This document shows, one piece after another, positions 742 to 40,594 of a stretch of DNA of 40,747 nucleotides. A model generated the notes under the pieces. That model ran no database searches. It was not told the origin of the DNA and worked only from the letters and a program-made list of their open reading frames with translations. Within the stretch, counting starts at the first letter, position 1. Each line of letters opens with the position of its first letter. Source of the stretch: a virus; the IMG/VR virus record IMGVR_UViG_3300032331_003750, positions 1 to 40,747 of that record; one strand, 5' to 3'. The position numbers and the translations under genes were made by a program.

Positions 742-768
742 AAAGCTTGTCTACCGGCAGGCTTTTTT
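742..768 (+). terminator. Rho-independent terminator
   Basis: AAAGCTTG (742-749) pairs with CAGGCTTT (758-765) to give an 8-bp stem with one G-T pair and an 8-base loop. The T tract runs to 768. It lies 24 bases after the preceding stop codon and separates the upstream gene from the DNA polymerase. Its 5' arm also carries the -33 element of a promoter. Confidence 0.85.
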
Positions 769-777
769 GTATCTTCA
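746..777 (+). promoter_or_regulatory. Bacteroidota-type promoter for the DNA polymerase operon
   Basis: TTG at 747-749 and TATCTTCA at 770-777 have the same 23-base TTG-to-TA offset as the other promoters in this window, and the leader ends AATAAAGTTTATG, like theirs. The -33 and spacer coincide with the terminator hairpin, so reading of the upstream operon stops where the next begins. The -7 box differs from the TATATTTAC form by two bases, so confidence is moderate. Confidence 0.5.
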
Positions 778-4671: not shown

Positions 4672-4687
4672 AAGCTCCCTAAAGCTT
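4672..4687 (+). promoter_or_regulatory. Hairpin after hsp20 whose loop complements the 5' UTR loop
   Basis: AAGCT (4672-4676) and AGCTT (4683-4687) form a 5-bp stem with loop CCCTAA (4677-4682). The loop is complementary to TTAGGG (4171-4176) in the upstream hairpin loop. There is no T tract, so it is not a standard terminator. Its 3' arm overlaps the -33 element of the next promoter. Confidence 0.45.
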
Positions 4688-4717
4688 GGATTAATTAAGA
4701 ATATTTCGTATATTCAC
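4685..4717 (+). promoter_or_regulatory. Promoter for the 99-aa gene and groES/groEL
   Basis: CTTGG (4685-4689) and TATATTCAC (4709-4717) have the shared 24-base start-to-start offset, with TTTCG just before the -7 box as in other family members. The spacer lacks the CCC/GGG palindrome. The ATG lies 19 bases downstream. Confidence 0.65.
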
Positions 4718-10395: not shown

Positions 10396-10587
10396 ATGAG
10401 TAAAAAAGACATGACCCTAACTTCGGTTAAAGTACAAAGTGAGTTATTTGATAATTTTAAAATTTCTTGTGTAAGATATAAATTTTCACTACAAAAGCTT
10501 GCCGATCGAACAATTCATTTGTATCTTACCGATGAAGAATTTAGAAAAAAAATTCACAACCATAATAATCTAGAAATTAATAATTAA
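10396..10587 (+). CDS. Ribbon-helix-helix-like small DNA-binding protein
   Basis: A 63-residue basic protein. Residues 6-14 (MTLTSVKVQ) would form the DNA-contacting strand, followed by helix LFDNFKISCVRYK and helix LQKLADRTIHLYL, the order seen in Arc/CopG repressors. It lies just upstream of the sugar cassette, so it may regulate it or the repeated promoters, which contain short palindromes. Assignment is by pattern only. Confidence 0.6.
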   Translation: MSKKDMTLTSVKVQSELFDNFKISCVRYKFSLQKLADRTIHLYLTDEEFRKKIHNHNNLEINN

Positions 10588-17325: not shown

Positions 17326-17357
17326 TTTGGATTTTATAAATTAAATTATTATATTAC
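17326..17357 (+). promoter_or_regulatory. Candidate promoter inside the sugar cassette
   Basis: TTTGG (17326-17330) and TATATTAC (17350-17357) keep the exact 24-base offset of the promoter family. The spacer is pure A/T without palindrome or TTCG. It lies in one of the few gaps of the cassette, just before the DJ-1-like gene at 17362. Start is only 5 bases after the -7 box, so the transcript would be nearly leaderless for that gene, which lowers confidence. Confidence 0.4.
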
Positions 17358-27863: not shown

Positions 27864-28157
27864 ATGATTATTAGATATTGTAAAGGATGTAAAGAACAAA
27901 TTAATCCAAAAAGATTAGAAATTCTTCCAACAGCAACAACTTGTGTCCCCTGCTCAACAACACAAAAAAGAGGAGCAGTTACAGTAATGAAAGGTGAAGG
28001 AGACCATACATGGATTGAAACAATATTCATGGAACATGATGACTTTCACCGTTATGAAGAACAAAATAAAAAATCAAAACGCATTACCTCTAAAAATTCT
28101 CAACCAGAATATCAAGATTACAACAAGGATAATTCAGTTGATAATATTGATATTTAA
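27864..28157 (+). CDS. DksA/TraR-type zinc-finger protein
   Basis: A 97-residue protein. C6, C9, C27 and C30 in RYCKGCKEQI and TTCVPCSTTQKRG reproduce the DksA/TraR C4 zinc finger. The long N-terminal coiled coil of DksA is absent, and the C-terminal half is polar and probably disordered. Proteins of this type can bind RNA polymerase through the secondary channel. A role in redirecting host transcription is possible but not shown. Confidence 0.78.
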   Translation: MIIRYCKGCKEQINPKRLEILPTATTCVPCSTTQKRGAVTVMKGEGDHTWIETIFMEHDDFHRYEEQNKKSKRITSKNSQPEYQDYNKDNSVDNIDI

Positions 28158-29373: not shown

Positions 29374-29405
29374 TTTGGTATACCCAGATAGGGTTCGTAT
29401 ATTTG
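29374..29405 (+). promoter_or_regulatory. Promoter for the glucosaminidase gene
   Basis: TTTGG (29374-29378) and TATATTTG (29398-29405), a perfect Bacteroidota -7 TAnnTTTG. The spacer contains ACCC-AGATA-GGGT, a perfect inverted repeat, then TTCG. Offset 24 as in the rest of the family. It fixes the start of the next gene at 29430, since an upstream in-frame ATG-less TTG-type start at 29403 would lie inside the -7 box. Confidence 0.82.
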
Positions 29406-29429
29406 ACCATAACCATAAAAATAAAAGTT

Positions 29430-29996
29430 ATGATCTATTGGAAATACAACGTTAACACTTTCAAGTGGGAGAAAAACAAACGCAAAACAAGAATTTTTTG
29501 GGGGATAATTATTACCCTAATTATAGGTTCATTTATTGGAGGATGTTTTGTTAGAGGAAAAACATTAGAAAATTTTGAAAGAGAATTACTTATTTTAGAT
29601 TTACAACAAGAAAAAAATAAGTTTACTCAAGAAAAATTAGTTGAAGAATTAAAAAGATTAAAAGTCAAATTCCCATATATTGTTATGGCCCAATCTATTC
29701 TTGAAACAGGTCATTGGAAAAGCCAAGTATTTAAAGAAAATAATAATCTATTTGGAATGAAACAAGCAACTATTCGTATTAATACAGCTAAAGGTACTAA
29801 TTTAAATCATGCCTATTATGATGATTGGTATCAATCCGTTTATGATTATGCTTTTTATAGTTGTAGATATTTAAGTAATATTGATACTGAAGAAGAATAT
29901 TACTTATATTTAGGTCAAAATTATGCTGAAGATAGTAATTATATTAATTCTTTAAAAAATGTCATTAATAAAGAAAAACTTAAAGAATTATTCTGA
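29430..29996 (+). CDS. Membrane-anchored glucosaminidase (FlgJ/LytG-like), probable lysis or cell-wall enzyme
   Basis: A 188-residue peptidoglycan hydrolase. A basic N-terminus is followed by a single membrane segment (about 22-40), then a coiled-coil-like linker and the glucosaminidase domain: VMAQSILETGHWKSQVF with catalytic E92, NNLFGMK, YDDWYQSVYDYAFY and YAEDSNYINSL. It would cleave the N-acetylglucosaminyl bonds from the outer face of the inner membrane. The signal-anchor layout recalls endolysins exported by the host Sec system. The ATG follows AAAAGTT, the normal leader, downstream of its own promoter. Confidence 0.88.
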   Translation: MIYWKYNVNTFKWEKNKRKTRIFWGIIITLIIGSFIGGCFVRGKTLENFERELLILDLQQEKNKFTQEKLVEELKRLKVKFPYIVMAQSILETGHWKSQVFKENNNLFGMKQATIRINTAKGTNLNHAYYDDWYQSVYDYAFYSCRYLSNIDTEEEYYLYLGQNYAEDSNYINSLKNVINKEKLKELF

Positions 29997-30001
29997 TATG
30001 T

Positions 30002-30026
30002 ATTAGGGTAACGTTTTAACCCTAAT
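30002..30026 (+). promoter_or_regulatory. Hairpin between the glucosaminidase and the 47-aa basic gene
   Basis: ATTAGGGT (30002-30009) and ACCCTAAT (30019-30026) form a perfect 8-bp stem with a 9-base loop. It starts six bases after a stop codon and ends six before the ATG at 30032. No T tract follows, so attenuation, RNA processing or translation control are as likely as termination. Confidence 0.5.
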
Positions 30027-30031
30027 CAACA

Positions 30032-30175
30032 ATGGCCAAATCAAAGTCTCAAGTAACAGTTTTAAAAGCAGATAAACCTAAAGTATCACGCACTGGAGTT
30101 CACGCAAAAACAAAAACTAGTAAGTTAAAATCTAGTAAAAATTATAGAAAGTTATATAAAAGTCAAGGTAAATAA
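30032..30175 (+). CDS. Small very basic protein
   Basis: A 47-residue, lysine-rich protein (MAKSKSQVTVLKADKPKV, GVHAKTKTSKLKSSKNYRK). I recall similar small basic proteins in Bacteroidota-infecting and other marine phages, of unknown function; nucleic-acid binding is suggested by charge only. The start lies just after a hairpin. Confidence 0.72.
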   Translation: MAKSKSQVTVLKADKPKVSRTGVHAKTKTSKLKSSKNYRKLYKSQGK

Positions 30176-30196
30176 ATAAATAAAATAAATAAAGTT

Positions 30197-30313
30197 ATGA
30201 GTAAAACAAGTAATCCCGCTAAAATAGAATGTCTAAAAATTTGGATCGATAATCTTAAATACAGAATGGGTAAAAAGGATAAACCAACTCCCTATTCTAA
30301 AAAACAAAGATGA
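30197..30313 (+). CDS. Small hypothetical protein
   Basis: A 38-residue basic peptide (MSKTSNPAKIECLKIWIDNL, then KPTPYSKKQR). The leader AATAAAGTT is like other starts here, and the stop overlaps the next ATG by four bases, supporting a real gene. Confidence 0.55.
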   Translation: MSKTSNPAKIECLKIWIDNLKYRMGKKDKPTPYSKKQR

Positions 30314-30474
30314 AACTTAAAGCAGATGCTGTAGATATATTTAATTCTCTTCCCGATGAATTATTAATCCAAATTGCTCTAAAAGATCCGGAAGCTTTAG
30401 AAGAATTATGTATATCTCTTACTTTAGAATTGTATTTCATGAAAAAGAAATTAAATCCATTAAAAGTAAGTTAA
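30310..30474 (+). CDS. Small acidic hypothetical protein
   Basis: A 54-residue protein with an acidic helix pattern (DAVDIFNSLPDELLIQIAL) and a leucine-rich C-terminus. It is translationally coupled to the 38-aa gene by ATGA. No recognised family. Confidence 0.55.
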   Translation: MKLKADAVDIFNSLPDELLIQIALKDPEALEELCISLTLELYFMKKKLNPLKVS

Positions 30475-30491
30475 AAACATCTATAAAGAAA

Positions 30492-30524
30492 TTTGGCTTA
30501 CCCAAATCTGTTTCGTATATTTAC
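30492..30524 (+). promoter_or_regulatory. Promoter for the SWIM zinc-finger gene
   Basis: TTTGG (30492-30496) and TATATTTAC (30516-30524) with TTTCG just before the -7 box. The spacer has ACCC but a degenerate right arm (CTGTTT), making it a natural palindrome variant. The ATG at 30542 follows AATAAAGGTT. Confidence 0.8.
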
Positions 30525-30541
30525 CCCATAAAATAAAGGTT

Positions 30542-30988
30542 ATGCTAAGTGAATTAACATTAGAATATGAGAATGGTACTAAAGTTGTAAAAATAGTTCC
30601 AAAAAGCGAATCAACTATTTATCCCCAAAGAGATAGTATTAAACATTGCACTCATAGATCTTTCAAATACGAGGTATCAAAACATCCTTATTTATGTATC
30701 TCTATTATAAAAACAGGAGATAGATATAAAATAATGCCCGAAGGTATTCCATGTATCCCTGAAACTGAATTAAGTGATATTATAGTAATAGATAATTTAC
30801 CTAAAATAGTTGAAAAACCTAAACAAGAAAATAAATGGATGTTTGAATCCTCAAGTGGAGATGGTTTTTATCAAGTAAGAGAGAATATGGGTAAATTAAA
30901 ATGTAGTTGTCCTGGATCTTGGAGAGCTAAAGATAAAAAATGCAAACATATTAAAGAAGTAGAAAAAGAATTAGGCTCCCTGAAATAG
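30542..30988 (+). CDS. SWIM zinc-finger protein
   Basis: A 148-residue protein. The C-terminal KCSCPGSWRAKDKKCKH gives CxC-x10-CxH (C121, C123, C134, H136), the SWIM zinc-finger pattern found in DNA- or protein-binding proteins of transposases, SNF2 helicases and phages. The N-terminal 90 residues are not recognised. The last codons (ELGSLK, stop) are encoded by the -33 and palindrome of the next promoter. Confidence 0.78.
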   Translation: MLSELTLEYENGTKVVKIVPKSESTIYPQRDSIKHCTHRSFKYEVSKHPYLCISIIKTGDRYKIMPEGIPCIPETELSDIIVIDNLPKIVEKPKQENKWMFESSSGDGFYQVRENMGKLKCSCPGSWRAKDKKCKHIKEVEKELGSLK

Positions 30989-31003
30989 GGTTTGTATATT
31001 TAC
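30971..31003 (+). promoter_or_regulatory. Promoter overlapping the end of the SWIM gene
   Basis: TTAGG (30971-30975) and TATATTTAC (30995-31003). The spacer carries CCCT-GAAAT-AGGG, a perfect inverted repeat, and the TAG stop of the upstream gene lies within it. The leader is GATAAGATAATTAATTAA, shared with the promoters at 40158 and 40521, and ends AATAAAGGTTATG. Confidence 0.82.
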
Positions 31004-31043
31004 GGATAAGATAATTAATTAATAATAATAAAAAATAAAGGTT

Positions 31044-31472
31044 ATGATAGAAAAAACAGAACGTAGAGGTAGACCTGTAGAACAAGTATTGGTTCAACCC
31101 GAAAAATTTACTCGTGAGTATTATGAAGTACCAACTAAACCTGAGTTAGGTACCAAAACTGTACTTTATTACGATACTACTAAAAATCCTCTAAATCCAT
31201 ACAAATCAGAAATTACTTATCCTAAAGAATATAAACATAATAATTTAAAAGCTGAAAAGCATAAATCATATAACAAGCAACCTGTAGTTTTAGTATTTAA
31301 AACATCAAATCGTTCAAATGCTCAAACTAAAATGAAAATATTCGCTAACGAAAATATTGATTATATTATATCAGCTGATAAATTAGTAGGTGTACCTGAA
31401 ACTGCAATAATTTTAGAATGTGGAGTAGGTGAAAATTTTATTCAAACTTGGCAATCTAAGTATTCTCTTTAA
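31044..31472 (+). CDS. Hypothetical protein
   Basis: A 142-residue protein. The N-terminal half is polar (EYYEVPTKPELGTKTVLYYD) and the C-terminal half resembles a small alpha/beta domain (PVVLVFKTSNRSNAQTKMKIF, IDYIISADKLVGVPETAIIL). No family recognised. It is the first gene after a strong promoter. Confidence 0.66.
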   Translation: MIEKTERRGRPVEQVLVQPEKFTREYYEVPTKPELGTKTVLYYDTTKNPLNPYKSEITYPKEYKHNNLKAEKHKSYNKQPVVLVFKTSNRSNAQTKMKIFANENIDYIISADKLVGVPETAIILECGVGENFIQTWQSKYSL

Positions 31473-31502
31473 TATTTATGACATATATTTAATTTATAAA
31501 AC

Positions 31503-32225
31503 ATGGCAACTAGAGCTCTTATTGGATACCTCAAAAATGGAATATTAACAACAACTTATAATCATTATGATGGTTATCCTGAACATTTAGGAAAAGCATT
31601 AAACACTTTTTATAAATCAGATTCAGAAGCTGAACAAATTGCAAATAAAGGTTATATTAGTTTTATAGATGATAAAACAGGTGAAATTGAAGCTAATAAC
31701 AAAGGAAGAGCTGATAAAATAAACCTTAACCAATTAGACCCAGAACAAGCCGCTGAAGAAGTAGCAGGATTAATTGATTCATATGGAGCAGATTATGCTT
31801 ATTTTTATGGTACAATGGGTTGGGAACATATACAAAATAATAGTATTCGTTCTATGATAGATCCTTTACAGACTATTTTATTTGGTGACTTTGATAACAC
31901 ATATGGTAAAGAAGAAATGGAGGAAGCTTATCACGTTGGTGATGATAAAGAAATAGTTACTAAAGAAAATAAAGTTGATTCTCGAGAAACATTTGCTAGA
32001 GTATTATCTCAAGCATTATTTAAATTAAACGATCAACCTAAAGATGCTCTTGAAGCATATAAAAAATCATTAGCTAACGATGTTCGCTTAAATGGTATTG
32101 AACAATATGCAGATTATACCGAGGAAGATTTTCAAGAAGACTTCCAAAATTATCTTTCGGATAAAATGGAAATGAATGAAACCCATATTCGCCAAATGAA
32201 ATATAAAGCAGGTATTATAAAATAA
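31503..32225 (+). CDS. Conserved phage protein of unknown function
   Basis: A 240-residue protein beginning MATRALIGYLKNGILTTTYN and HYDGYPEHLGKAL. I know similar proteins from other T4-like and marine phages without assigned function. A Tyr/Asp-rich first half and acidic second half are apparent. The 30-base leader is AT-rich; a weak promoter-like TTGG lies at 31448-31451 but lacks the standard spacing. Confidence 0.72.
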   Translation: MATRALIGYLKNGILTTTYNHYDGYPEHLGKALNTFYKSDSEAEQIANKGYISFIDDKTGEIEANNKGRADKINLNQLDPEQAAEEVAGLIDSYGADYAYFYGTMGWEHIQNNSIRSMIDPLQTILFGDFDNTYGKEEMEEAYHVGDDKEIVTKENKVDSRETFARVLSQALFKLNDQPKDALEAYKKSLANDVRLNGIEQYADYTEEDFQEDFQNYLSDKMEMNETHIRQMKYKAGIIK

Positions 32226-32230
32226 ATAAA

Positions 32231-32767
32231 ATGAAAAAAGCAGACAATTTTAACGCATCAAAGTGGTTAGTAGAAAATAAAATTACTTTTCAATCAAAGC
32301 TAATTGAAGCAAAGGGACAGGAACCATCAAAATCAGGAGAGGAATTCTCATTATCCTGCAAGATAGTACAACTCTCAGGTGCTGAGTATGTTAACTATAA
32401 TTTTAAATTAGATGATGTTGATTTTGAAGAAGTAAAGAGAGGAACAGGTATTTTATCTAAGGTCGGAAGCTTTATAAAAGGCAAACCTACAATCCAATTT
32501 TATTTTAAACCAGTATCAATAGAAGGTCTTTCAAAAAGTGAGATAGAAGAAATTAAAGATGTATTTATTACTGTAAAATTAAAAAATGATGCTTTTGTTT
32601 TAGACACATGGAATACATCAGAAATAACCGCAGCCTCTATTCCTGATAGTACTCAAGCTACTAAATTTATAAATTATTTATTAGGAAAATCCCAATGGAA
32701 AGATGGTTTAAATAATACCTTTGGAGATATGAAAACTAAATTAACACCAGCTTCATTTAAAAAATAA
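32231..32767 (+). CDS. Hypothetical protein with capsid-targeting-like N-terminal tag
   Basis: A 178-residue protein. Residues 1-26 (DNFNASKWLVENKITFQSKL core, ending LIE) match the next gene's N-terminus at 20 of 26 positions. The tag ends SKLIE-A, which fits the (L/I)xE cleavage rule of T4 prohead protease. The remainder is beta-rich (GAEYVNYNFKLDDVDFEEV, KPTIQFYFKPVSIEGL) and not recognised. An internal head protein or ejected protein is suggested. Confidence 0.7.
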   Translation: MKKADNFNASKWLVENKITFQSKLIEAKGQEPSKSGEEFSLSCKIVQLSGAEYVNYNFKLDDVDFEEVKRGTGILSKVGSFIKGKPTIQFYFKPVSIEGLSKSEIEEIKDVFITVKLKNDAFVLDTWNTSEITAASIPDSTQATKFINYLLGKSQWKDGLNNTFGDMKTKLTPASFKK

Positions 32768-32772
32768 ATAAA

Positions 32773-33006
32773 ATGAAAAAATCAGACAACTTTAACGCTA
32801 TACAGTGGTTAACAGAAAACAAAATCACTACACAATCTAAGTTAAACGAAAACAACACTGAAGCTTCAGAGCTTTTATCTCTATTAGCATCCCCAGAAAT
32901 AAAAAAATACATGGACAAGTTATCGGATACTTTAGAGGATGCTGATTTTATGCGAGTAAAAAAGTTATATGATGGTTTATATACAGAATTAAAAAAACAC
33001 GAATAA
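32773..33006 (+). CDS. Small protein sharing the same N-terminal tag
   Basis: A 77-residue protein: a tag nearly identical to its upstream neighbour's (ends SKLNE) plus about 50 mostly helical residues (EASELLSLLASPEIKKYMDKL). The leader AAATAAATAAA before the ATG is also duplicated from the upstream gene, pointing to a local duplication of the start region. The stop overlaps the next ATG. Confidence 0.7.
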   Translation: MKKSDNFNAIQWLTENKITTQSKLNENNTEASELLSLLASPEIKKYMDKLSDTLEDADFMRVKKLYDGLYTELKKHE

Positions 33007-33929
33007 TGCAAAAATCAAAATTACAAGTAATTGTAAAAGAAGAAATAAAAGCAGCTTTTAAAGCAAAAAATAAAAAGGTTCATGAAAATTACTATGCGGG
33101 GTTAGGTGGATCAAATCCTCTTTCAGATTCAAGTATGAGAACCGATATAGTTGAGCCTAATTTAGGTCCTAATTATGAGGCTTTTATTATGATGAATAAC
33201 TGGAATGAGTATGGTAAATTAGATAAGCAATACCCTTCTTTAGTAACCCAAGGGTGGAAGAGCCTTTACCGATCCGATAGCGGTCAAGGATATGCAAGAA
33301 TCTCTCCTGATGGAAAGGTGATTAAAGCAGCTATTTTAACTGGTAATGGTATTGAAGGAGCTTTTTATGTGAAGTCTGGAGGAGGAATTAACGAATCTGT
33401 AACTTCAATATCTAAAGCAGATTTGATTGTAAAACTAGAACCATTAAAGAAGCTTTTTCCTAAAATCACAGATCGTGATATAAAATCACTAACATTTGTT
33501 GGTACTAAAGCAGAAACAACAAACATATATAAAGCCTTAGGAGCTTTAAAAATCCAAGACTATTTTGACCCACCAAATGATGACTCAGAGGCTAGTGGCG
33601 CAGGTACTTGGGTTATTGATACTATGGATGCTAGTGATAAGGGTCTTATTAAAGAATCAAAACCTTACTTTAAATATATAGATAAAGAACTCTACCCCAA
33701 CCCAGGAATGGAGGTTAATGCTAGGGATATTGATAATGAAATGATGATTTATTTTATTAAAAAAAATTTCAAGTTATTAATCACTACTAAAAATGAAAAA
33801 GACATTCCAGGATCTATTACTAAACAAAATAACAATTATCAATTCCTTAGAACAGGAGGATCTAATTCATCAACTTCGGATGAGATAAATAAGAAAGATA
33901 TTTTAAGTATAAAGATAGTTAGAGATTAA
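33006..33929 (+). CDS. Hypothetical protein, possibly virion-associated
   Basis: A 307-residue protein whose first 20 residues (KSKLQVIVKEEIKAAF) look like a helical leader, followed by a glycine/serine-rich stretch. I recognise no domain. It follows the two tagged genes with one-base overlap, so a packaged-protein role is possible. The C-terminal tail is polar. Confidence 0.65.
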   Translation: MQKSKLQVIVKEEIKAAFKAKNKKVHENYYAGLGGSNPLSDSSMRTDIVEPNLGPNYEAFIMMNNWNEYGKLDKQYPSLVTQGWKSLYRSDSGQGYARISPDGKVIKAAILTGNGIEGAFYVKSGGGINESVTSISKADLIVKLEPLKKLFPKITDRDIKSLTFVGTKAETTNIYKALGALKIQDYFDPPNDDSEASGAGTWVIDTMDASDKGLIKESKPYFKYIDKELYPNPGMEVNARDIDNEMMIYFIKKNFKLLITTKNEKDIPGSITKQNNNYQFLRTGGSNSSTSDEINKKDILSIKIVRD

Positions 33930-33956
33930 AAGGTTATATAAGAAAAAATAAAGGTT

Positions 33957-34280
33957 ATGGAAAATCAAAAATTATTTATTGAATTATCTAGTATATTAAA
34001 TACTAAAGGTGCTAATATTAGTATGGAGAGGTTATTCCAAGATGGAATAATTACTTATTCAAATATCCCTGAGGTAAAAGAATATGTAGGTCCTAATGGT
34101 AATGGATTTTGTTTTCGTGCAAATCACAAATATTTTGGGATTAGTGAATCTGAATTAGCAGACTTATTCCCTATCACTATTAACAATCATATTATTAAAT
34201 TAATAGAACACCTAGAATTTGAAATAGAATCAGGTAATGATCGTTATTATCCTGAATCATTTGCTTTTAGCATCGAATAA
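33957..34280 (+). CDS. Hypothetical protein
   Basis: A 107-residue acidic protein (MERLFQDGIITYSNIPEV, HKYFGISESELADLFPI). The leader AATAAAGGTTATG is the standard one, but no promoter of the family precedes it, so it is read from upstream. No family recognised. Confidence 0.65.
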   Translation: MENQKLFIELSSILNTKGANISMERLFQDGIITYSNIPEVKEYVGPNGNGFCFRANHKYFGISESELADLFPITINNHIIKLIEHLEFEIESGNDRYYPESFAFSIE

Positions 34281-34308
34281 AAAAAAAATAAAAACGTCAT
34301 ATGAAAAA

Positions 34309-34341
34309 TTTGGAATCCTGATGTGGGGTTCGTATATTTAC
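34309..34341 (+). promoter_or_regulatory. Promoter upstream of the gene at 34366
   Basis: TTTGG (34309-34313) and TATATTTAC (34333-34341), with GGGGTTCG before the -7 box. The palindrome is weak here (TCCT versus GGGG). Sequence from about 34287 onward resembles the promoter at 38323, including AATAAAAACGTCAT upstream, so one was copied from the other. Confidence 0.8.
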
Positions 34342-34365
34342 CCATATAAAAACAAAATAAGAGTT

Positions 34366-34761
34366 ATGAAAAAAACACCAAAATCAATTTTAACCGCCGA
34401 GTGGTTAACAATCAAATCAATGTATGAATCCAACACTAATGGATCAAACAAGTATGGTACTAACTTTCCAATTAATGGTGAATTAGATCAACTTACACTA
34501 AAGTTTATAGACAAAATTGGGGATATAACCCATAATTTAGGCTTTGAATGTATTATTGATGATGTTCCTATGAATTTATGGAAAGAACGTATTTGGTCCC
34601 TTATTGAAAATGCTGGTCTCCTTCAAGACATTGCCTGGAAAGTTGATTTAGAAGATGAAGAAGCAGAAATCCAAGACAACTGGTATTCAGGAGATGATGA
34701 TGATTTTGATGCTGATTTAGAAGCACAAAGTTATGAAGTATTTGGTCTTAATAAAATTTAA
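34366..34761 (+). CDS. Hypothetical protein with acidic tail
   Basis: A 131-residue protein (MKKTPKSILTAEWLTIKSM start), with a very acidic C-terminus (DLEDEEAEIQDNW, GDDDDFDADLEAQ). The acidic tail resembles DNA-mimic or single-strand-binding-type tails but nothing else supports such a role. An in-frame ATG at 34237 lies upstream of the promoter and is excluded. Confidence 0.66.
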   Translation: MKKTPKSILTAEWLTIKSMYESNTNGSNKYGTNFPINGELDQLTLKFIDKIGDITHNLGFECIIDDVPMNLWKERIWSLIENAGLLQDIAWKVDLEDEEAEIQDNWYSGDDDDFDADLEAQSYEVFGLNKI

Positions 34762-34764
34762 ACT

Positions 34765-34899
34765 ATGAACCCTGAAATGAAAGAGCGTTTATATAGAGAA
34801 TTAATGACTATACTTTTAATGGTAGAAGATAGAAACAATAACGAAGCAATAATGCATCTTGAAAATTTGATTAATAAACTCACACATAATAGGCTATAA
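34765..34899 (+). CDS. Small helical hypothetical protein
   Basis: A 44-residue peptide predicted as two helices (PEMKERLYRELMTILLMV, then EAIMHLENLINKL). It starts three bases after the preceding stop. No family recognised. Confidence 0.5.
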   Translation: MNPEMKERLYRELMTILLMVEDRNNNEAIMHLENLINKLTHNRL

Positions 34900-34917
34900 T
34901 TAAATATTTTATATAAA

Positions 34918-35100
34918 ATGACAAGAGAAGAAAGAGTTGAAGAAATGCTATACCATGCTCGTGAACGTGGATATTACGAACAAGTTTTACAAAAATACAA
35001 AGAAATAAAACTTTTAGAACCTAGAATAGATCTTTATGAATGTTGGGATAAAGCTTATTATGAGGCAAAATCAGAAAATTATGAAAGTCCAACTTCCTAA
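34918..35100 (+). CDS. Small charged hypothetical protein
   Basis: A 60-residue helical protein (MTREERVEEMLYHARERGYY, EQVLQKYKEIKLLEP), with a helix-hairpin layout like a short TPR-like unit. No family recognised. Confidence 0.55.
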   Translation: MTREERVEEMLYHARERGYYEQVLQKYKEIKLLEPRIDLYECWDKAYYEAKSENYESPTS

Positions 35101-35123
35101 AAATAGACAATAAATAAAATTTA

Positions 35124-35324
35124 ATGTACAACATATATTTTCATAATGGAGTTCCTTATAAGGTTTTAAAAAGAATTAAAACACATAGTGTATCTTTTAA
35201 AGATATAGTAAATATGGATTTACTTAAAGAATGGCGAGATCATGTTGGGGCCGATCATGTATTACAAAAAGCAGATGAATATTGGCTTTGTGAAACCATT
35301 AAAGAGGCGGAAATAGTTGAATAA
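35124..35324 (+). CDS. Small hypothetical protein
   Basis: A 66-residue protein (MYNIYFHNGVPYKVLKRIK start). No family recognised. It ends just before the next promoter. Confidence 0.55.
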   Translation: MYNIYFHNGVPYKVLKRIKTHSVSFKDIVNMDLLKEWRDHVGADHVLQKADEYWLCETIKEAEIVE

Positions 35325-35339
35325 TATTATCAATTTAAG

Positions 35340-35372
35340 TTTGGCTCCCTGAGATAGGGTTCGTATATTCAC
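35340..35372 (+). promoter_or_regulatory. Promoter for the gene at 35394
   Basis: TTTGG (35340-35344) and TATATTCAC (35364-35372). The spacer contains CCCT-GAGAT-AGGG, a perfect inverted repeat, then TTCG. The leader ends AATAAAGGTTAATG. Confidence 0.84.
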
Positions 35373-35393
35373 GTATCAAATAAATAAAGGTTA

Positions 35394-35807
35394 ATGCATA
35401 AAATAAATCGTTTTTTTCAAAGAATTGCTATCAAAGCTACTCGTCTTATGAACCCTGATATTGGAGCAGGGAATAAAGAAAATTTTAATATTGAGGTATT
35501 TTCTATTTGTAAATGTTTAATTTCAAATCAAGAAACAATACTTCTAATTTCCCCTATTTCTGGGAAAAGATACATCCGAAGTGATCAAAGTCAATTATTT
35601 ATTATTATTGAAAATCATCAAATAACTATTGTAAATCATCACTATAGTTATAATATTGATATTGCTGGTAGATCATATGAACGTATTGCTCAAATATTTG
35701 ATGCTGAAGTAGAAAAGAGACGTGAGCAAATGGAAATAGAAATTAAAGCCAATGTTAAACATTCCTTATCAAATATTTACAAAAATTTAATTAATGAAAA
35801 GATTTAA
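35394..35807 (+). CDS. Hypothetical protein
   Basis: A 137-residue protein: basic N-terminus (MHKINRFFQRIAIKATRLM), a beta-rich middle (ETILLISPISGKRYIRS) and a long helical C-terminus (AEVEKRREQMEIEIKANVK). No recognised family. It overlaps the next small membrane gene by 14 bases. Confidence 0.62.
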   Translation: MHKINRFFQRIAIKATRLMNPDIGAGNKENFNIEVFSICKCLISNQETILLISPISGKRYIRSDQSQLFIIIENHQITIVNHHYSYNIDIAGRSYERIAQIFDAEVEKRREQMEIEIKANVKHSLSNIYKNLINEKI

Positions 35808-35892
35808 ACAATTATGGTGGAAGGGTTTACTAATTGTAGGCATTCCTGTATTATTATTTTTATCTATGGTTTTAGCATTTTTATTTAAATAA
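35794..35892 (+). CDS. Small single-pass membrane peptide
   Basis: A 32-residue peptide: positively charged start (MKRFKQLWWKG), one membrane segment (LLIVGIPVLLFLSMVLAFLF). It overlaps the end of the previous gene. Small membrane peptides of this type can be holin-like or superinfection factors, but nothing specific is visible. Confidence 0.5.
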   Translation: MKRFKQLWWKGLLIVGIPVLLFLSMVLAFLFK

Positions 35893-35931
35893 TTAATAGT
35901 TTTAAGTTGGTTAGAACCCAACACTAATTAC

Positions 35932-35943
35932 AGTACAAGAGTT
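35932..35943 (+). repeat. Left arm of a 12-bp inverted repeat flanking the gene at 35971
   Basis: AGTACAAGAGTT (35932-35943) is the exact reverse complement of AACTCTTGTACT at 36368-36379. The gene between is entirely enclosed, so the transcript could close into a long stem-loop. Confidence 0.5.
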
Positions 35944-35970
35944 CTTTGACATATAAAAATTTAAAAAAAC

Positions 35971-36354
35971 ATGGTAGAAATTACATCATATGTTTTAGGT
36001 ATGCTTACGATTGCAGCAATATTATTATTAATTGCTTTAGTTCTAGGTATGGTTAAGATAAGCAAATTAGAGAAAAAAATAAGTGAACAACAAAAACAAA
36101 TAGATGGAATACATCAATTTTCATCCCACGAACACGAGTATTTTCAACGATTATTTGAAGATACACATCGCGATATCAATATGGTTGAAAAAACAGTAAT
36201 GAATCAAATTGAAAAAATTGATCGAGACCATCATTCAATAGAAGATGATATTCATCGAGAAATTAATCAAACAAAGTCCTATATTGATTCCCGGATTGAT
36301 AGAGTAGTATTACAAGGTTCCATTATAGGAAAAAAAGAAATAATTAAAGGATAA
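35971..36354 (+). CDS. Membrane-anchored coiled-coil protein
   Basis: A 127-residue protein. Residues 8-28 form one membrane segment (LGMLTIAAILLLIALVLGMV), and the rest is a long, charged coiled coil (KLEKKISEQQKQIDGI, DRDHHSIEDDIHREIN). Function unknown; i-spanin-like or membrane-scaffold roles would fit the topology, but no partner is visible. The flanking inverted repeats and a hairpin at 35906-35922 mark its transcript. Confidence 0.65.
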   Translation: MVEITSYVLGMLTIAAILLLIALVLGMVKISKLEKKISEQQKQIDGIHQFSSHEHEYFQRLFEDTHRDINMVEKTVMNQIEKIDRDHHSIEDDIHREINQTKSYIDSRIDRVVLQGSIIGKKEIIKG

Positions 36355-36367
36355 AATAACCCGTTAA

Positions 36368-36379
36368 AACTCTTGTACT
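36368..36379 (+). repeat. Right arm of the 12-bp inverted repeat
   Basis: AACTCTTGTACT, complementary to 35932-35943. It starts 13 bases after the stop of the membrane gene and ends 4 bases before the promoter at 36384. Confidence 0.5.
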
Positions 36380-36383
36380 TTTA

Positions 36384-36415
36384 TTTGGATTCTTAATTTT
36401 TTATTAATATATTTA
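36384..36415 (+). promoter_or_regulatory. Promoter for the 53-aa gene and the tRNA cluster
   Basis: TTTGG (36384-36388) and TATATTTA (36408-36415), offset 24. The spacer is A/T-rich without the palindrome or TTCG, like the one at 17326. It precedes the gene at 36434 by 18 bases and the tRNAs further on. Confidence 0.65.
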
Positions 36416-36433
36416 AAAACAAAACAAAACAGA

Positions 36434-36595
36434 ATGGAAATAGTAAATCTAGTTAATGACAAATGCCAAGTAATTGAATCATCAACAGGTCAAATCATGT
36501 TTGAAGGATCGTATGATGATTGTTTTATTTGTTTAGCTACATATGAAAATGAAGATGAAATGTATCGAAACCATTTGCTAATGTCCGGAATTTAA
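36434..36595 (+). CDS. Small hypothetical protein upstream of the tRNAs
   Basis: A 53-residue acidic protein (MEIVNLVNDKCQVIESS, GSYDDCFICLATYENEDEMY). The two cysteines in DCFIC are close together. A start 18 bases after a promoter supports a real gene. It ends seven bases before tRNA-Glu. Confidence 0.6.
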   Translation: MEIVNLVNDKCQVIESSTGQIMFEGSYDDCFICLATYENEDEMYRNHLLMSGI

Positions 36596-36602
36596 AAGAT
36601 TT

Positions 36603-36674
36603 GGTCCTATCGACTATCGGTTAGGTCGTCAGGTTTTCATCCTGGAAAGCGGGGTTCGATTCCCCGTAGGACTA
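36603..36674 (+). tRNA. tRNA-Glu (anticodon TTC)
   Basis: A 72-base cloverleaf. Acceptor GGTCCTA pairs with TAGGACT (one G-T at 1-72). The D arm is GAC/GTC. The anticodon stem is TCAGG/CCTGG with loop TTTTCAT and anticodon TTC at 36636-36638. The T arm is CGGGG/CCCCG with loop TTCGATT. The discriminator is A; CCA is not encoded. It would read GAA and GAG codons, which are abundant in the genes here. Confidence 0.92.
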
Positions 36675-36760
36675 CAACAGCCTGTACCCTTGAGAAACTC
36701 GTATTTAAAGATAAGCAGGTTGGCTTCGAAATAAAGGGGTAGGAGAATAAGAAGCAATAT
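36675..36760 (+). other. Structured spacer between tRNA-Glu and the tRNA-like element
   Basis: No gene is seen. It holds CCTG...CAGG, an internal GAG-AAA-CTC hairpin, and TACCCTT against AAGGGGTA. The last pairing would cross the first, giving pseudoknot potential. It could be a processed RNA or simply a precursor spacer. Confidence 0.3.
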
Positions 36761-36839
36761 AGTCAGGTGGGCGTAATGAGGGATTGGTCCCGAGTCCAGT
36801 TAAATGGTTGCTTATCCGGTTCGAGTCCGGCCCTGACTA
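36761..36839 (+). tRNA. Aberrant tRNA-like element, isotype uncertain
   Basis: Acceptor AGTCAGG pairs perfectly with CCTGACT (36832-36838), and the T arm is CCGG/CCGG with a normal TTCGAGT loop. The interior is 5-6 bases too long for a type I tRNA. The best 5-bp/7-base arm is GGATT/AGTCC with loop GGTCCCG (anticodon position TCC, Gly-like), but base 33 is G instead of T and no proper D stem is found. An alternative loop, GTTAAA within CCA/TGG, would suggest TAA (Leu) but has only a 3-bp stem. It may be a decaying tRNA or a tRNA-mimic RNA. Confidence 0.45.
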
Positions 36840-36913
36840 CAAAAAAACGTTGGTGGAAACACTAAAGAGCATAATGATATCAGCTCCAGCAGGTTAAGCG
36901 TGTCCTGTAAAAC
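36840..36913 (+). other. Structured spacer between the tRNA-like element and tRNA-Trp
   Basis: No gene is seen. It contains GTG-GAAA-CAC (a GNRA-type tetraloop hairpin), GAGC...GCTC, and GCAGG/CCTGT interleaved with GCGT/ACGC, which would form an H-type pseudoknot. The last arm overlaps the first two bases of tRNA-Trp, so the two folds would compete. Confidence 0.3.
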
Positions 36914-36987
36914 GCGTCTGTAGCTCTAACTGGTAGAGCATCGGATTCCAAATCCGAGTGTTAGTGGTTCGAATCCACTCAGGCGGG
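36914..36987 (+). tRNA. tRNA-Trp (anticodon CCA)
   Basis: A 74-base cloverleaf. D arm GCTC/GAGC, anticodon stem TCGGA/TCCGA with loop TTCCAAA and anticodon CCA at 36948-36950. T arm AGTGG/CCACT with loop TTCGAAT. The acceptor GCGTCTG pairs with CAGGCGG at six positions, but 1-72 is G-G, unpaired, and 4-69 is T-G. The discriminator G73 fits tryptophan tRNAs. CCA is not encoded. Confidence 0.88.
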
Positions 36988-37014
36988 CAATATAAATAAT
37001 AAAAATAATAAAAT

Positions 37015-37242
37015 ATGAATAAAGAAAAATTTGAAGTTGAAATAAAGTCAATAGCTAAAACTATAGCAGCAGTAATAATAGTTGCTATTGGGGTTAGATT
37101 ATTAACAGTTTATCTAACGGCTGAGTTGGATATTGTATCTATAATTGCCGGCATACTTGGTATATTAATTATCCAACCTGCTATAAGACATTATACAAGA
37201 TTAATAAATATATTATTCCCGGATAATATAAAAAGTAAGTAA
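37015..37242 (+). CDS. Small membrane protein, two segments
   Basis: A 75-residue protein with hydrophobic stretches at about 14-32 (AKTIAAVIIVAIGVRLLTV) and 40-56 (IVSIIAGILGILIIQPA), the second followed by basic residues. A holin-like size and layout, but nothing beyond topology supports that. The start is followed by the small membrane peptide at 37245. Confidence 0.6.
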   Translation: MNKEKFEVEIKSIAKTIAAVIIVAIGVRLLTVYLTAELDIVSIIAGILGILIIQPAIRHYTRLINILFPDNIKSK

Positions 37243-37244
37243 AG

Positions 37245-37337
37245 ATGAGATTAAATTGGTTATTAGTTGTTAGTTGGAGTATTGTAGTTATAATGTCTAT
37301 TATCGTTTGGGGAAGTTTAATTAAATTATTTATATAA
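37245..37337 (+). CDS. Small single-pass membrane peptide
   Basis: A 30-residue peptide (MRLNWLLVVSWSIVVIMSII core), almost entirely membrane segment, starting two bases after the previous stop. Together with the gene before it, it forms a pair of membrane proteins. Confidence 0.5.
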   Translation: MRLNWLLVVSWSIVVIMSIIVWGSLIKLFI

Positions 37338-37341
37338 AAAT

Positions 37342-37599
37342 ATGATATCACCACAATCAATCCGAAAAGGAATTACAATTAAATTTGATAATGTAGAAGT
37401 AGATAAAGCTACTATTATTAACTCAAGTAAAGAATGGAAAGAAAACCATGAAATTTTATTTAAAAAACTACTTAAACAAGGTGGTTCATTTAAAATCAAT
37501 GGTATTTTAGTAGAAGTTAAACCTACAGATAAAATGTTAACATCTCGTGGTGAACAAGATACTGGGATTTTAAAAATAGATCCTTTTGCAAGATTCTAA
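37342..37599 (+). CDS. Small hypothetical protein
   Basis: An 85-residue basic protein (PQSIRKGITIKFDNVEVDKA; GGSFKINGILVEVKPTDKML). A beta-rich pattern but no named family. Confidence 0.6.
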   Translation: MISPQSIRKGITIKFDNVEVDKATIINSSKEWKENHEILFKKLLKQGGSFKINGILVEVKPTDKMLTSRGEQDTGILKIDPFARF

Positions 37600-37620
37600 A
37601 TTTTATTACTTAAAACACTT

Positions 37621-38340
37621 ATGAAAATAACCTTAATTTCAGATACCCATACAAAACATCAAAATCTAAATTCAGATTTACCTGGAGGTGATATATTGAT
37701 CCATTCTGGTGACTTTATGAATTCAGGTTATGATAAATCGGATGCAACTGATTTTTTTGATTGGTTCGGTTCAATAAAAGGATATGATAAGAAAATTTTT
37801 ATTGCCGGAAATCACGATCGTATTTTAGAAAATGACCCTACTTGGAGTTTATTAACTATAAAAAATTATCCAAATCTTATTTATCTTCAAGATGAAGGTT
37901 ATTCTATTTATGACATAGATGGAGATTCATCAGTTAAATTATATGGTTCACCTTGGCAACCTGCCTTTTTTAATTGGGCATTTAATTTACCACGCAATGG
38001 TGAAGAATTAAAAGAAAAATGGGACGCAATACCTAAAGATACAGATATCCTTATAACACACGGACCACCATTTGGATATTTAGACATTCCGGGAGGACAA
38101 AGTATACGAGTTGGATGTGAAATGTTACGTTATCGAGTAGATGAATTAAAACCAAAGATTCATGTGTTTGGTCACGTTCACGGAGGATATGGCTACTACT
38201 TTAATGGCCATACTCATTTTTTTAATGCCTCAGTATTAAACGAGAGATACAAGTATACAAATAAACCATTCACATTTAAATGGGATCAATCAACTAATGA
38301 AATAAAAACGTCATACACAGAATTTGGAATACCTGAATAA
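37621..38340 (+). CDS. Metallophosphoesterase
   Basis: A 239-residue calcineurin-like phosphoesterase. The metal-binding motifs are complete: LISDTH (D8, H10), HSGDF (D31), GNHD (N64-H65), THGPP (H147) and GHVHGG (H185, H187). The substrate is not predictable: protein phosphate, nucleotides or cyclic nucleotides such as anti-phage signals are options. The last residues (EFGIPE) are encoded in the -33/spacer of the next promoter. Confidence 0.9.
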   Translation: MKITLISDTHTKHQNLNSDLPGGDILIHSGDFMNSGYDKSDATDFFDWFGSIKGYDKKIFIAGNHDRILENDPTWSLLTIKNYPNLIYLQDEGYSIYDIDGDSSVKLYGSPWQPAFFNWAFNLPRNGEELKEKWDAIPKDTDILITHGPPFGYLDIPGGQSIRVGCEMLRYRVDELKPKIHVFGHVHGGYGYYFNGHTHFFNASVLNERYKYTNKPFTFKWDQSTNEIKTSYTEFGIPE

Positions 38341-38355
38341 GGTTCGTATATTTAC
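38323..38355 (+). promoter_or_regulatory. Promoter overlapping the end of the phosphoesterase gene
   Basis: TTTGG (38323-38327) and TATATTTAC (38347-38355). The spacer carries ACCT-GAATA-AGGT, a perfect inverted repeat with an arm sequence different from the others, then TTCG. The upstream AATAAAAACGTCAT matches the promoter at 34309. Confidence 0.84.
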
Positions 38356-38380
38356 CCTATATAAAAATAAAATAAAAGTT

Positions 38381-38992
38381 ATGAGTAAATTTGATTACAA
38401 AGACAATCGAGCTACATCAATAAAAGTAAAAGATTTTGCTCAAAGTATGTTATTTTGGAAAAGTCGTAAGAAAGGTATGATACAAACTCGTAATATTGAG
38501 TTAGATGATTTTCGTTACATATTTTTTCCTAAAGGATTTGAAAAATATGGTTATTTAGGAACACAAATATGGAATGAAGATGGTGTTTATTTTAAAGCAC
38601 TTTATCCATTAGTATTAGCACTGGATCATGAAGCAAAACCAAAATGGTGTCCAAGATGGTTTCTACGTTTTTTGCATGTATTTGGTATGGATAAATCAAT
38701 TGTTCGAGTTCGTAATAGAAAATTAAGTAACCTATTAAATAAATTAACTAAGGGAATTAGTTTTGTTGATTGGAAAACTAAATGGGAATCTTATGACTTG
38801 CGAATTAGCATTCATGCTCCTCAACACATACAAAATTTGGCTGAGTGGATTGAACGTGGATTTTATAATGAAGGACGACAAGAAGAGTTAGTTAAACAAA
38901 TTAAATCTATAGATCCCAACGCTAGTATTATTTTAGGTAGTATAGATAGATTAAAAAAACAACTAAAGAACCTAGAAAATAAAACAAAATGA
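38381..38992 (+). CDS. Hypothetical protein
   Basis: A 203-residue basic protein (start MSKFDYKDNRATSIKVKDF). It has aromatic/basic stretches (KWCPRWFLRFLHVFGMDK) and a helical C-terminus. No family recognised. ATG follows AAAAGTT downstream of its promoter; an in-frame ATG at 38324 lies inside the promoter and is excluded. It overlaps the next gene by four bases. Confidence 0.68.
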   Translation: MSKFDYKDNRATSIKVKDFAQSMLFWKSRKKGMIQTRNIELDDFRYIFFPKGFEKYGYLGTQIWNEDGVYFKALYPLVLALDHEAKPKWCPRWFLRFLHVFGMDKSIVRVRNRKLSNLLNKLTKGISFVDWKTKWESYDLRISIHAPQHIQNLAEWIERGFYNEGRQEELVKQIKSIDPNASIILGSIDRLKKQLKNLENKTK

Positions 38993-39366
38993 AACTAGAA
39001 GTATTTACAGAAATCCTTAATAAACTTAGGAAGCAATCAGACAAGGAACATGCATTGTATGCACTAGATGTAGACCTTATAAACTATTCAGATGACCATA
39101 ACGCAGTAATAAACATTTTATTAGAGGTGTACTATGGTAAGGAGGGAGCAGATTGGATTAGTTGGTATCTATGGGAGAGAGATCCTGTTGGAACAATTGA
39201 CCAAGCAACTACTAATGACGGAAAACCTATTTGTTATGATGTCAAGTCATTATGGGAAGAGGTAGAGCAATGTAGGTTGGAGAATACGAAAGAGTATGAG
39301 CTACCTTATAAACTAACAGATGAGGAAAGATTACAAGTATTAACAATGATACAAAATGGATTATGA
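38989..39366 (+). CDS. Hypothetical protein, paralogue-like to 27482
   Basis: A 125-residue acidic protein with INILLEVYYGKEGADW followed by WYLWER and LWEEVEQ, shared in order with the protein at 27482. I have seen this sort of protein in phages with no assigned function. It is coupled by four-base overlaps on both sides. Confidence 0.68.
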   Translation: MKLEVFTEILNKLRKQSDKEHALYALDVDLINYSDDHNAVINILLEVYYGKEGADWISWYLWERDPVGTIDQATTNDGKPICYDVKSLWEEVEQCRLENTKEYELPYKLTDEERLQVLTMIQNGL

Positions 39367-39608
39367 AACAAACAGCAGTAGAAGGGTTGGGAAAAGAATT
39401 AGAATCATATGGTGACCCACAATTTTGTACAATAGAGTGGGAACAATTAGATTCACTAATTGAACAAGCCAAAGAAATGGAGAAGAATCAAAGTTATACT
39501 TATGATGAAATCAGAACTATTGCATATAATGCTTATTGTCTTGCTCAATTAGATGAACCTACAGAAGGTAAGTATAATATTTGGATACAACAATATAAAA
39601 AACACTAA
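39363..39608 (+). CDS. Small hypothetical protein
   Basis: An 81-residue acidic protein (AVEGLGKELESYG, IEWEQLDSLIEQAKEMEK). Similar short AVEWL...AKEMEK proteins are frequent in phages, with unknown function. Overlaps the previous gene. Confidence 0.62.
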   Translation: MKQTAVEGLGKELESYGDPQFCTIEWEQLDSLIEQAKEMEKNQSYTYDEIRTIAYNAYCLAQLDEPTEGKYNIWIQQYKKH

Positions 39609-39610
39609 AA

Positions 39611-39850
39611 ATGGGAAAAATAATACTGGAGTTTGACTCTTACGAAGACCAAGGCGATGCAAGAACAGCATTAGATGGATACAAATGGAAAATGGCCATG
39701 TGGGAATTAGATCAATTACTTAGAACTGCAACAAAATATGGTTCTTTTGAAAATAGAGAAGCTACTGAAGCTGAACGAGATATGGCTGATAAAGTAAGAG
39801 ACTCTATTAGAGATATATTAAATGAATCCAATTTAAACTTAGATGATTAA
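39611..39850 (+). CDS. Small hypothetical protein
   Basis: A 79-residue acidic protein (GKIILEFDSYEDQGDARTAL, WKMAMWELDQLLRTATKYG). The N-terminal IILEFDSYED segment resembles a strand followed by a helical rest. Overlaps the next gene by eight bases. Confidence 0.62.
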   Translation: MGKIILEFDSYEDQGDARTALDGYKWKMAMWELDQLLRTATKYGSFENREATEAERDMADKVRDSIRDILNESNLNLDD

Positions 39851-40136
39851 TATATTAAAAAAAATATTTAAATCAACTCCCAAATCTCAACCTGAACCTG
39901 TAAAGGAGATTATTGATTCTCCATTTGAAACAAGGATTCTAAGAGCACGTATAAGTAAACCTTCAAATCAACATTTTAACATTGATCCCAACTATGTCTT
40001 AACCCAAAACAAAAATCAATTAGCCTTAGAATTATTAGAACAAATAGTAAATCAAAATCTAATTGAATTTATCCAAACCCAAGATTTTGGACAAAACATA
40101 ATTGAAGCCGAAATATTAATATCAATAAAAAAATAA
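39843..40136 (+). CDS. Small hypothetical protein
   Basis: A 97-residue protein with basic N-terminus (INILKKIFKSTPKSQPEP) and mixed C-terminus (LIEFIQTQDFGQNIIEAEIL). No recognised family. It ends in front of the 83-bp promoter repeat. Confidence 0.6.
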   Translation: MINILKKIFKSTPKSQPEPVKEIIDSPFETRILRARISKPSNQHFNIDPNYVLTQNKNQLALELLEQIVNQNLIEFIQTQDFGQNIIEAEILISIKK

Positions 40137-40210
40137 TTAAATTTCTCTGCAAAAAGATTAGGCTCCCCGATATAGGGTTCGTATATTTACCAGGTAAGAT
40201 AATTAATTAA
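40128..40210 (+). repeat. 83-bp direct repeat, copy 1 (contains a promoter)
   Basis: This copy and that at 40491-40573 are identical except one position (G40149 versus A40512). Each includes the end of the upstream gene, an A/T-rich stretch, the promoter and its GGTAAGATAATTAATTAA leader. Confidence 0.88.
40158..40190 (+). promoter_or_regulatory. Promoter for the gene at 40216
   Basis: TTAGG (40158-40162) and TATATTTAC (40182-40190), offset 24. The spacer holds CCCC-GATAT-AGGG (three of four pairs), then TTCG. Located inside copy 1 of the 83-bp repeat. Confidence 0.82.
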
Positions 40211-40215
40211 AAAAT

Positions 40216-40503
40216 ATGAAAGCATTTCAATCATTTAAAGAAGAATATCCAGAATCTGAAGGATTTTCAATTACATTTGAAAACGGAAACTATATCAGTG
40301 TTATGTTTGGAAAACACACATATTCCGATTCAGGAGAAACAACAGCGGAGGTAGCAGCTTGGAATAGTAATAAGGAATGGATGTTATTTCAAGATGGAGC
40401 ATGGATCACAATAAAACAAGGTAGTGATGTTATGCCAAGATGCACACCTACGGAAGTTGCTGAAATGATGTTTGCATTAAGTATGCTTCCAAAAAATAAT
40501 TAA
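40216..40503 (+). CDS. Hypothetical protein
   Basis: A 95-residue protein (AFQSFKEEYPESEGFSITFE, GNYISVMFGKHTYSDSG), beta-rich with a helical end (PTEVAEMMFALSML). No family recognised. It lies between the two repeat copies. Confidence 0.66.
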   Translation: MKAFQSFKEEYPESEGFSITFENGNYISVMFGKHTYSDSGETTAEVAAWNSNKEWMLFQDGAWITIKQGSDVMPRCTPTEVAEMMFALSMLPKNN

Positions 40504-40573
40504 ATTTCTCTACAAAAAGATTAGGCTCCCCGATATAGGGTTCGTATATTTACCAGGTAAGATAATTAATTAA
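40491..40573 (+). repeat. 83-bp direct repeat, copy 2 (contains a promoter)
   Basis: Second copy, 363 bases after the first, with one mismatch. The gene between them, 40216-40503, is thus flanked by identical promoter cassettes. Confidence 0.88.
40521..40553 (+). promoter_or_regulatory. Promoter for the gene at 40595
   Basis: TTAGG (40521-40525) and TATATTTAC (40545-40553), offset 24, with the same CCCC-GATAT-AGGG spacer as at 40158. The leader ends AATAAAGGTTATG. Confidence 0.82.
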
Positions 40574-40594
40574 TAAAAACAAAAAATAAAGGTT

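Follow-up and report, generated by a model that had tools for sequence, protein, structure and literature searches.

The Window and Its Relatives

The window analyzed here is the whole of the IMG/VR virus record IMGVR_UViG_3300032331_003750 (40,747 nucleotides), a linear record of 40.7 kb whose genes lie nearly all on one strand. Its subject is a family of promoter-like sites in that record, some of which carry a palindrome between or across their two boxes. The genes encode a family-B DNA polymerase (PolB), a clamp loader, GroEL, Hsp20 and sugar-modifying proteins. A search with the DNA polymerase returned about 40 relatives of up to 150 kb, and the main promoter statistics below were obtained on 18 related phage records, 1.16 Mb in total. 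The group has the hallmarks of T4-type phages: the window encodes PolB and the clamp loader, both near-complete relatives (G001 and G002) have the T4-type capsid protein Gp23, and the isolate immuto has Gp20 as well as Gp23. Named isolates are distant, the nearest being the Flavobacterium Immutovirus phages (GroEL 62% identity). An Rfam search of the window found two transfer RNAs only, so that the elements match no curated RNA family.

A Promoter Family of Fixed Geometry

The earlier note, made from the sequence of the window, had listed eight sites with two boxes at constant spacing. All eight are present (29374, 30492, 30971, 34309, 35340, 38323, 40158, and 40521), each reading TT[T/A]GG, then 19 bases, then TATATT. 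With four related sites they are as follows.

746..777, + strand: DNA polymerase gene promoter of the -33/-7 type, CTTGT-N19-TATCTTCA
4685..4716, + strand: promoter of the same matrix (score 28.1), no significant hairpin (fold -2.0)
17326..17357, + strand: promoter-like (score 18.0), no GC hairpin
29374..29405, + strand: promoter before an endolysin-like gene; stem ACCC/GGGT at 29382-29394
30492..30523, + strand: promoter; hairpin at 30491-30507, the -33 box (aTTTGG) paired with CCAAAt
30971..31002, + strand: promoter overlapping the end of the open reading frame (ORF) 30542-30988; hairpin at 30978-30990, CCCTGaaaTAGGG + TTTGTATATT
34309..34340, + strand: promoter; nested, terminator-like hairpin at 34313-34331 with a stem of 7 base pairs (bp), including two U-G pairs (-7.8 kcal/mol)
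35340..35371, + strand: promoter; nested hairpin at 35347-35359, CCCTG/TAGGG
36384..36415, + strand: promoter-like (score 18.6), no hairpin (fold 0)
38323..38354, + strand: promoter overlapping the end of ORF 37621-38340; stem ACCT/AGGT at 38331-38343
40158..40189, + strand: promoter in the first cassette copy (40128-40221); weak stem CCC/GGG
40521..40552, + strand: promoter in the second cassette copy (40491-40584, 95% identical), across the 95-amino-acid ORF 40216-40503

The pattern TTNGG-N19-TATATTT occurs eight times on the forward strand of the window and never on the reverse strand (for the reversed control the counts are 0 and 1); this count includes 36384 and misses 35340, which reads TATATTC. 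Among the 18 records, TT[T/A]GG-N19-TATATT[C/T] is found 103 times on the gene strand and not once on the other, while gaps of 8 to 35 bases other than 19 give 0-6 occurrences each on the gene strand. A matrix of the boxes only, iterated on the same records, finds 382 sites vs 12 on the reverse strand. The resulting consensus is [TCG]TTGG, 19 bases with a conserved middle A, usually TTCG, and then TATATTtAC, the composite element being about 35 bases long. The promoters sit in gaps between co-directional genes, and most intergenic sites of the window lie 18-42 nucleotides (nt) before the next ATG. By this strand and spacing bias, the predicted -33/-7 promoter family of fixed geometry is real, and its attribution to a host-type Bacteroidota pattern holds as well. 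A scan for sigma70-type -35/-10 promoters gave no excess over shuffles. In the middle 50 kb of Bacteroides phage DAC16 one site was found per strand, i.e., there are no such promoters there.

The host sigma-ABfr promoters of Bacteroidota read TTTG / TAnnTTTG (PMC6847099). The phage sites share the -33 TTTG and the TAnnTT core at the right distance, but differ from the host set in two respects: their -33 TTGG is far stronger than in F. johnsoniae promoters, and the host T-6 G-5, which is near-invariant, is replaced by T at a frequency of 0.47 and A at 0.70 (PMC6847099).

Box matches also occur within ORFs at window positions 10498, 15668, and 7314, as internal promoters or by chance. Leaders often end in AAATAAAGGTTATG (window 30531, 31033, 33943, 40584, and elsewhere), which gives a Shine-Dalgarno-like AAAGG near the ATG; this is odd for Bacteroidota, whose genes are without such sequences.

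A Hairpin in Three Registers

The folding energy around the promoters has its peak exactly on the spacer. In the relatives, 15 spacers fold with E <= -7, vs 2.5 for half-swapped spacers (maximum 8). When the hairpin is allowed to extend upstream, 40 of 344 sites reach E <= -8, vs 9.7 for half-swapped sites (maximum 13) and 0-6 in shifted controls. The position of the stem was located by scanning all possible symmetry centres, counted in bases after the start of the -33 box, on 317 non-redundant sites. A plain antidiagonal excess of pairs proved too diluted (maxima at the right centres, with z of only 3.2 and 1.8) and was replaced by run counts, which peak at 7.0 (15 vs 6.2), 12.5 (10 vs 1.4), and 13.0 (11 vs 1.6).

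The hairpins, nearly all of which end at or before the -7 box, fall into three registers. Some lie ahead of the spacer, others take the -33 box into their 5' arm, and the rest are contained entirely within the spacer. The few stems of the first kind, at centre 0-1, are exemplified by G002:45866, where TTTTTT follows a stem of 11 bp. In the centre-7 hairpins the 5' arm is the -33 box itself, as in gaaggga-TTTGGc-ttt-gccgga-tcccttTCG-TATATTT; this class has the classical terminator layout with A- and T-runs, and TTTT precedes the -7 box in 56% of its members vs 9% of other sites. At centre 12.5 the stem fills the spacer, as in TTTGG-AGGGGC-GAAA-GCCCCT-TCG, mostly with GNRA loops. Several centre-7 cassettes are preceded by the conserved word AGAATcATTCTAAATGA, itself an inverted repeat (e.g., G005:27924, G010:36342).

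The strong hairpins lie mostly 6-30 nt past a stop codon, and fall within ORFs less often than the other sites (5/44 vs 105/310; Fisher p=0.0017). In a terminator scan of 28-40.7 kb that was independent of the promoters, two of the three terminator-like sites coincide with promoters of this family. The same elements, T-runs included, are present in the isolate Immutovirus immuto_3-5A; examples from Immutovirus isolates are aaaagaGTTGCttaaccgcagctcttttctTATCTTTA (-14.0) and agaagcCTAGTttttactaggcttttttcgTATATTTA (-15.5).

Within the window, the eight sites appear to be mostly weak versions of the fully nested class. The label of degenerate palindromes, applied earlier to four of them, does not fully suit 34309, with its 7-bp stem, or 30492, where the -33 box is paired. 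Sites 746, 4685, 17326, and 36384 had in turn been described as keeping the spacing and lacking the palindrome. This is borne out at 17326 and 36384, which have no GC hairpin, and at 4685, which has no significant one, but not at 746. The hairpin there is the strongest in the window (-15.5 kcal/mol with 36 nt folded; -17.9 in another fold); it spans about 738-769, some 5 bases further upstream, with the -33 box within its 5' arm and a T-run at its end. Its stem is kept with changed pairs in the relatives G012:293, L028:562, and G008:7802.

Covariation of the Arms

The palindrome had been noticed for arms that appeared to change together. In the window alone this is not significant (p=0.22 when halves are swapped among its own sites). 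The right half ATAGGGTTyG is identical at 29374, 30971, 35340, 40158, and 40521, and GGGT and AGGG overlap within a single string, so that what looked like covariation in the window is mostly due to register; the sole clean two-sided change seen there is from C-G at 29374 to T-A at 38323. The case for covariation becomes strong only with the relatives and with data from all of IMG/VR.

The pattern TTGG-N5-CGAAAG-N5-TCGTA-N2-TT, which describes the nested hairpin, has at least 91 distinct matches across IMG/VR, and 33 different arm pairs occur among the matches listed. In that set, 16 of the 33 arm pairs are fully complementary, with 1.8 expected and a maximum of 6 in 500 shuffles, and about 12 of them are unrelated 5-bp arms, all Watson-Crick, around one CGAAAG centre (AGGGG/CCCCT, AGCCC/GGGCT, AGACC/GGTCT, AAGCC/GGCTT, ATATT/AATAT, and CTCCC/GGGAG are examples). 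Those of its five-pair arms that are not all Watson-Crick all use G-U on the gene strand. With the control centre CAAAA, one of 103 is fully complementary. The search of relatives for covarying arms that the earlier note proposed thus bears out the covariation, though not the operator it was meant to support. In the 317 non-redundant sites, Watson-Crick plus G-U pairs exceed Watson-Crick plus A-C pairs at centres 7 and 13. Overall, pairs other than Watson-Crick are nearly always G-U on the gene strand, and A-C mismatches are rare. Pairing is conserved and arm sequence is not, and such covariation is strong evidence that the stem matters.

The same pattern has 3 matches in 85,000 host species genomes; two of these look like promoters, have paired arms and lie on short contigs of metagenome-assembled genomes (MAGs). 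Since the IMG/VR sites are so many more, the nested-hairpin element looks phage-borne. L383 (JAIOYD010000100.1), a contig labelled as a Rickettsiaceae MAG, has three such promoters, one with the stem AACCCC/GGGGTT, and is probably a misbinned phage contig.

Proposed Function and Alternatives

The palindrome is most likely an RNA hairpin of the upstream gene's transcript, and most simply an intrinsic terminator. This placement in the upstream transcript is suggested by pairing without sequence conservation, the three registers, the G-U pairs, the T-runs, the position after stop codons and the avoidance of ORFs. We consider it likely that the sites are composite terminator-promoter elements of T4-like Bacteroidota phages, one element ending a gene and starting the next. 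Polymerase coming from the upstream gene would transcribe the hairpin and terminate there, aided by the T-rich stretch before the -7 box, and the host enzyme carrying its primary sigma factor (of the sigma-ABfr type) would initiate the next unit at the same element. The arms would be free to vary provided they pair, which would explain the covariation. Such an element would insulate neighbouring early units and, as a short repeated homology, could act as a recombination joint.

Several observations weigh against this proposal. T-runs are absent from the fully nested class (0% of its sites have TTTT), which leaves it uncertain how efficiently that class would terminate. About 80% of the promoters have no strong hairpin, so the hairpin is optional. 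Terminator-like sites over the whole of 28-40.7 kb are no more frequent than in shuffles (3 vs 3.9). At a few sites (30971, 38323) the stop codon of the upstream gene falls within the element, and a ribosome could therefore block the hairpin. Because the fixed boxes have a composition bias towards G-U rather than A-C, the G-U test is supportive rather than decisive.

The same RNA-level evidence would also fit a hairpin with a post-transcriptional role, serving to mark or shield the 3' end of the upstream mRNA or as a cleavage site for an RNase, with little termination of its own. The nested class, which lacks a T-run and mostly has GNRA loops, suits this idea, but a classical terminator layout, A- and T-runs included, is found where the -33 box is part of the arm, and PeSL (promoter-early stem-loop) elements of T4-type phages are reportedly terminators; we regard a post-transcriptional role as unlikely. 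The reading put forward earlier was an operator: a dimeric regulator, of the phage or of the host, would bind the palindrome and so repress or activate the promoter. Repressors often bind between the boxes, where the inverted repeat lies, and the window offers a possible regulator in the DksA-type zinc finger at 27864, confirmed as PF01258. A dimer's operator keeps its arm sequence and register, whereas here the arms are wholly different between sites and still complementary, and the symmetry centre moves between about 0, 7, and 12.5-13; neither a conserved arm sequence nor a fixed register was found, and G-U pairs and T-runs also speak against an operator. Nothing links the 27864 protein to the sites, and the other regulator once suggested, a ribbon-helix-helix protein at 10396, is an ORF for which no Pfam or PHROG family matched. 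An operator is, on these grounds, highly improbable.

Shared ancestry or the copying of a few cassettes, with the pairing functionless, has an even slimmer chance of being correct: cassettes are visibly duplicated (40158/40521) and halves are common to many sites, but at least 12 different paired arm sets exist, and neither the swap nulls nor the control centre show the pairing. In phage N4 a DNA hairpin helps polymerase to recognize the promoter, and a cruciform or single-stranded hairpin might do so here, given that in the nested class the stem fits precisely between the two boxes. The majority of the family's promoters have no stem, however, its register varies, G-U pairs would be mismatches in DNA and the boxes match double-stranded host-type elements, all of which leaves this the least probable explanation.

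The recombination joint that the composite terminator-promoter would offer can be set beside one clean example: G007 lacks the gene that stands between the promoters G002:111624 and 112303, and the junction falls immediately after the -7 box. Overall, about 21% of indel ends lie near promoters, which is not above the approximately 26% expected from gene junctions alone (382 promoters and about 1,500 ORFs). Indel breakpoints were accordingly dropped as evidence of cassette recombination, there being no enrichment over ordinary gene junctions. In the window, the cassette pair 40128-40221 / 40491-40584 is a ready substrate for loss or gain of the 95-amino-acid ORF.

Relation to Known Promoter Stem-Loops

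PeSL cassettes were reportedly described in the T4-type phages RB49/phi1, PST/T4, and nt-1/KVP40 by Arbiol in 2010, and Comeau in 2014 reportedly described the stem-loops of T4-type phages as terminators. In our scan of the RB49 genome, stems are found exactly between TTGAC and TATACT, with GNRA loops and in shifted registers too (TTGAC-GGGGATC-gcga-GATCCCC-TATACT and TTGACg-CGGGGA-gaaa-TCCCCG-TTATACT are examples). Both systems belong to T4-type phages and place an early-type promoter, here a candidate one, and a stem-loop in intergenic gaps; promoter and stem-loop form one short element here too, with the stem nested or overlapping, and where RB49 nests it around -35/-10, the Bacteroidota phages do so around -33/-7. 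They differ in that the promoter is of the Bacteroidota -33/-7 type, host phylum and sequence being unrelated, and in that the -33 box contributes to the 5' arm in one of the two main strong classes; a role in recombination is here only a candidate. Judged by layout, the elements are a Bacteroidota -33/-7 version of PeSL cassettes. One paper cites PeSLs as stem-loops at promoters through which T4-like phages shuffle genes (PMC4503421). No description of PeSL-like elements in Bacteroidota phages was found in the literature searched, which did not include the two main PeSL papers. In the haloarchaeal virus HGTV-1 a TATA/inverted-repeat motif precedes genes, and its authors compare it with PeSLs (PMC3950731). 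It likewise repeats a promoter with an inverted repeat, but virus and promoter are archaeal, and the comparison is by description only.

A more speculative view, which we hold to be possible but doubtful, is that the spacer-nested terminator may be a general solution, having arisen independently with E. coli sigma70 (RB49) and Bacteroidota sigma-ABfr. It might then work as a coupled switch, in which upstream read-through or termination sets the firing of the embedded promoter, with three alternative registers.

A Candidate Late Promoter

A second motif, ATATTTATA, is intergenic and has no -33 partner in G001, G002 (L069-L084), and other relatives (e.g., G002 51022, 54923, 59394). It is strongly enriched there: 138 of 256 copies of TATTTATA lie between genes, in 6% of the DNA. 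In G002, ATATTTATA is found mainly at 3-88 kb, the stretch that holds the Gp23 gene, and most strong -33/-7 sites are at 95-150 and 0-8 kb, concentrated outside the ATATTTATA-rich stretch. In the relatives, ORFs of about 240 amino acids (G020:46046, G004:75896, G002:12597, G001:5943) match sigma region 2 weakly and region 4 not at all; they are candidates for a late sigma factor. Region 2 without region 4 is as expected if a gp55-like phage sigma serves the late genes and the host factor reads -33/-7. From its distribution, ATATTTATA is likely a late promoter for such a gp55-like sigma.

Significance

These results provide hundreds of mapped candidate early promoters and a likely late promoter for abundant, little-studied marine and freshwater Bacteroidota phages, and would extend the PeSL idea to a different sigma-factor system. 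The model can be tested directly with the isolate immuto, which grows on Flavobacterium sp. LMO8, and Bacteroidota genetics could gain compact terminator-promoter parts from these elements.

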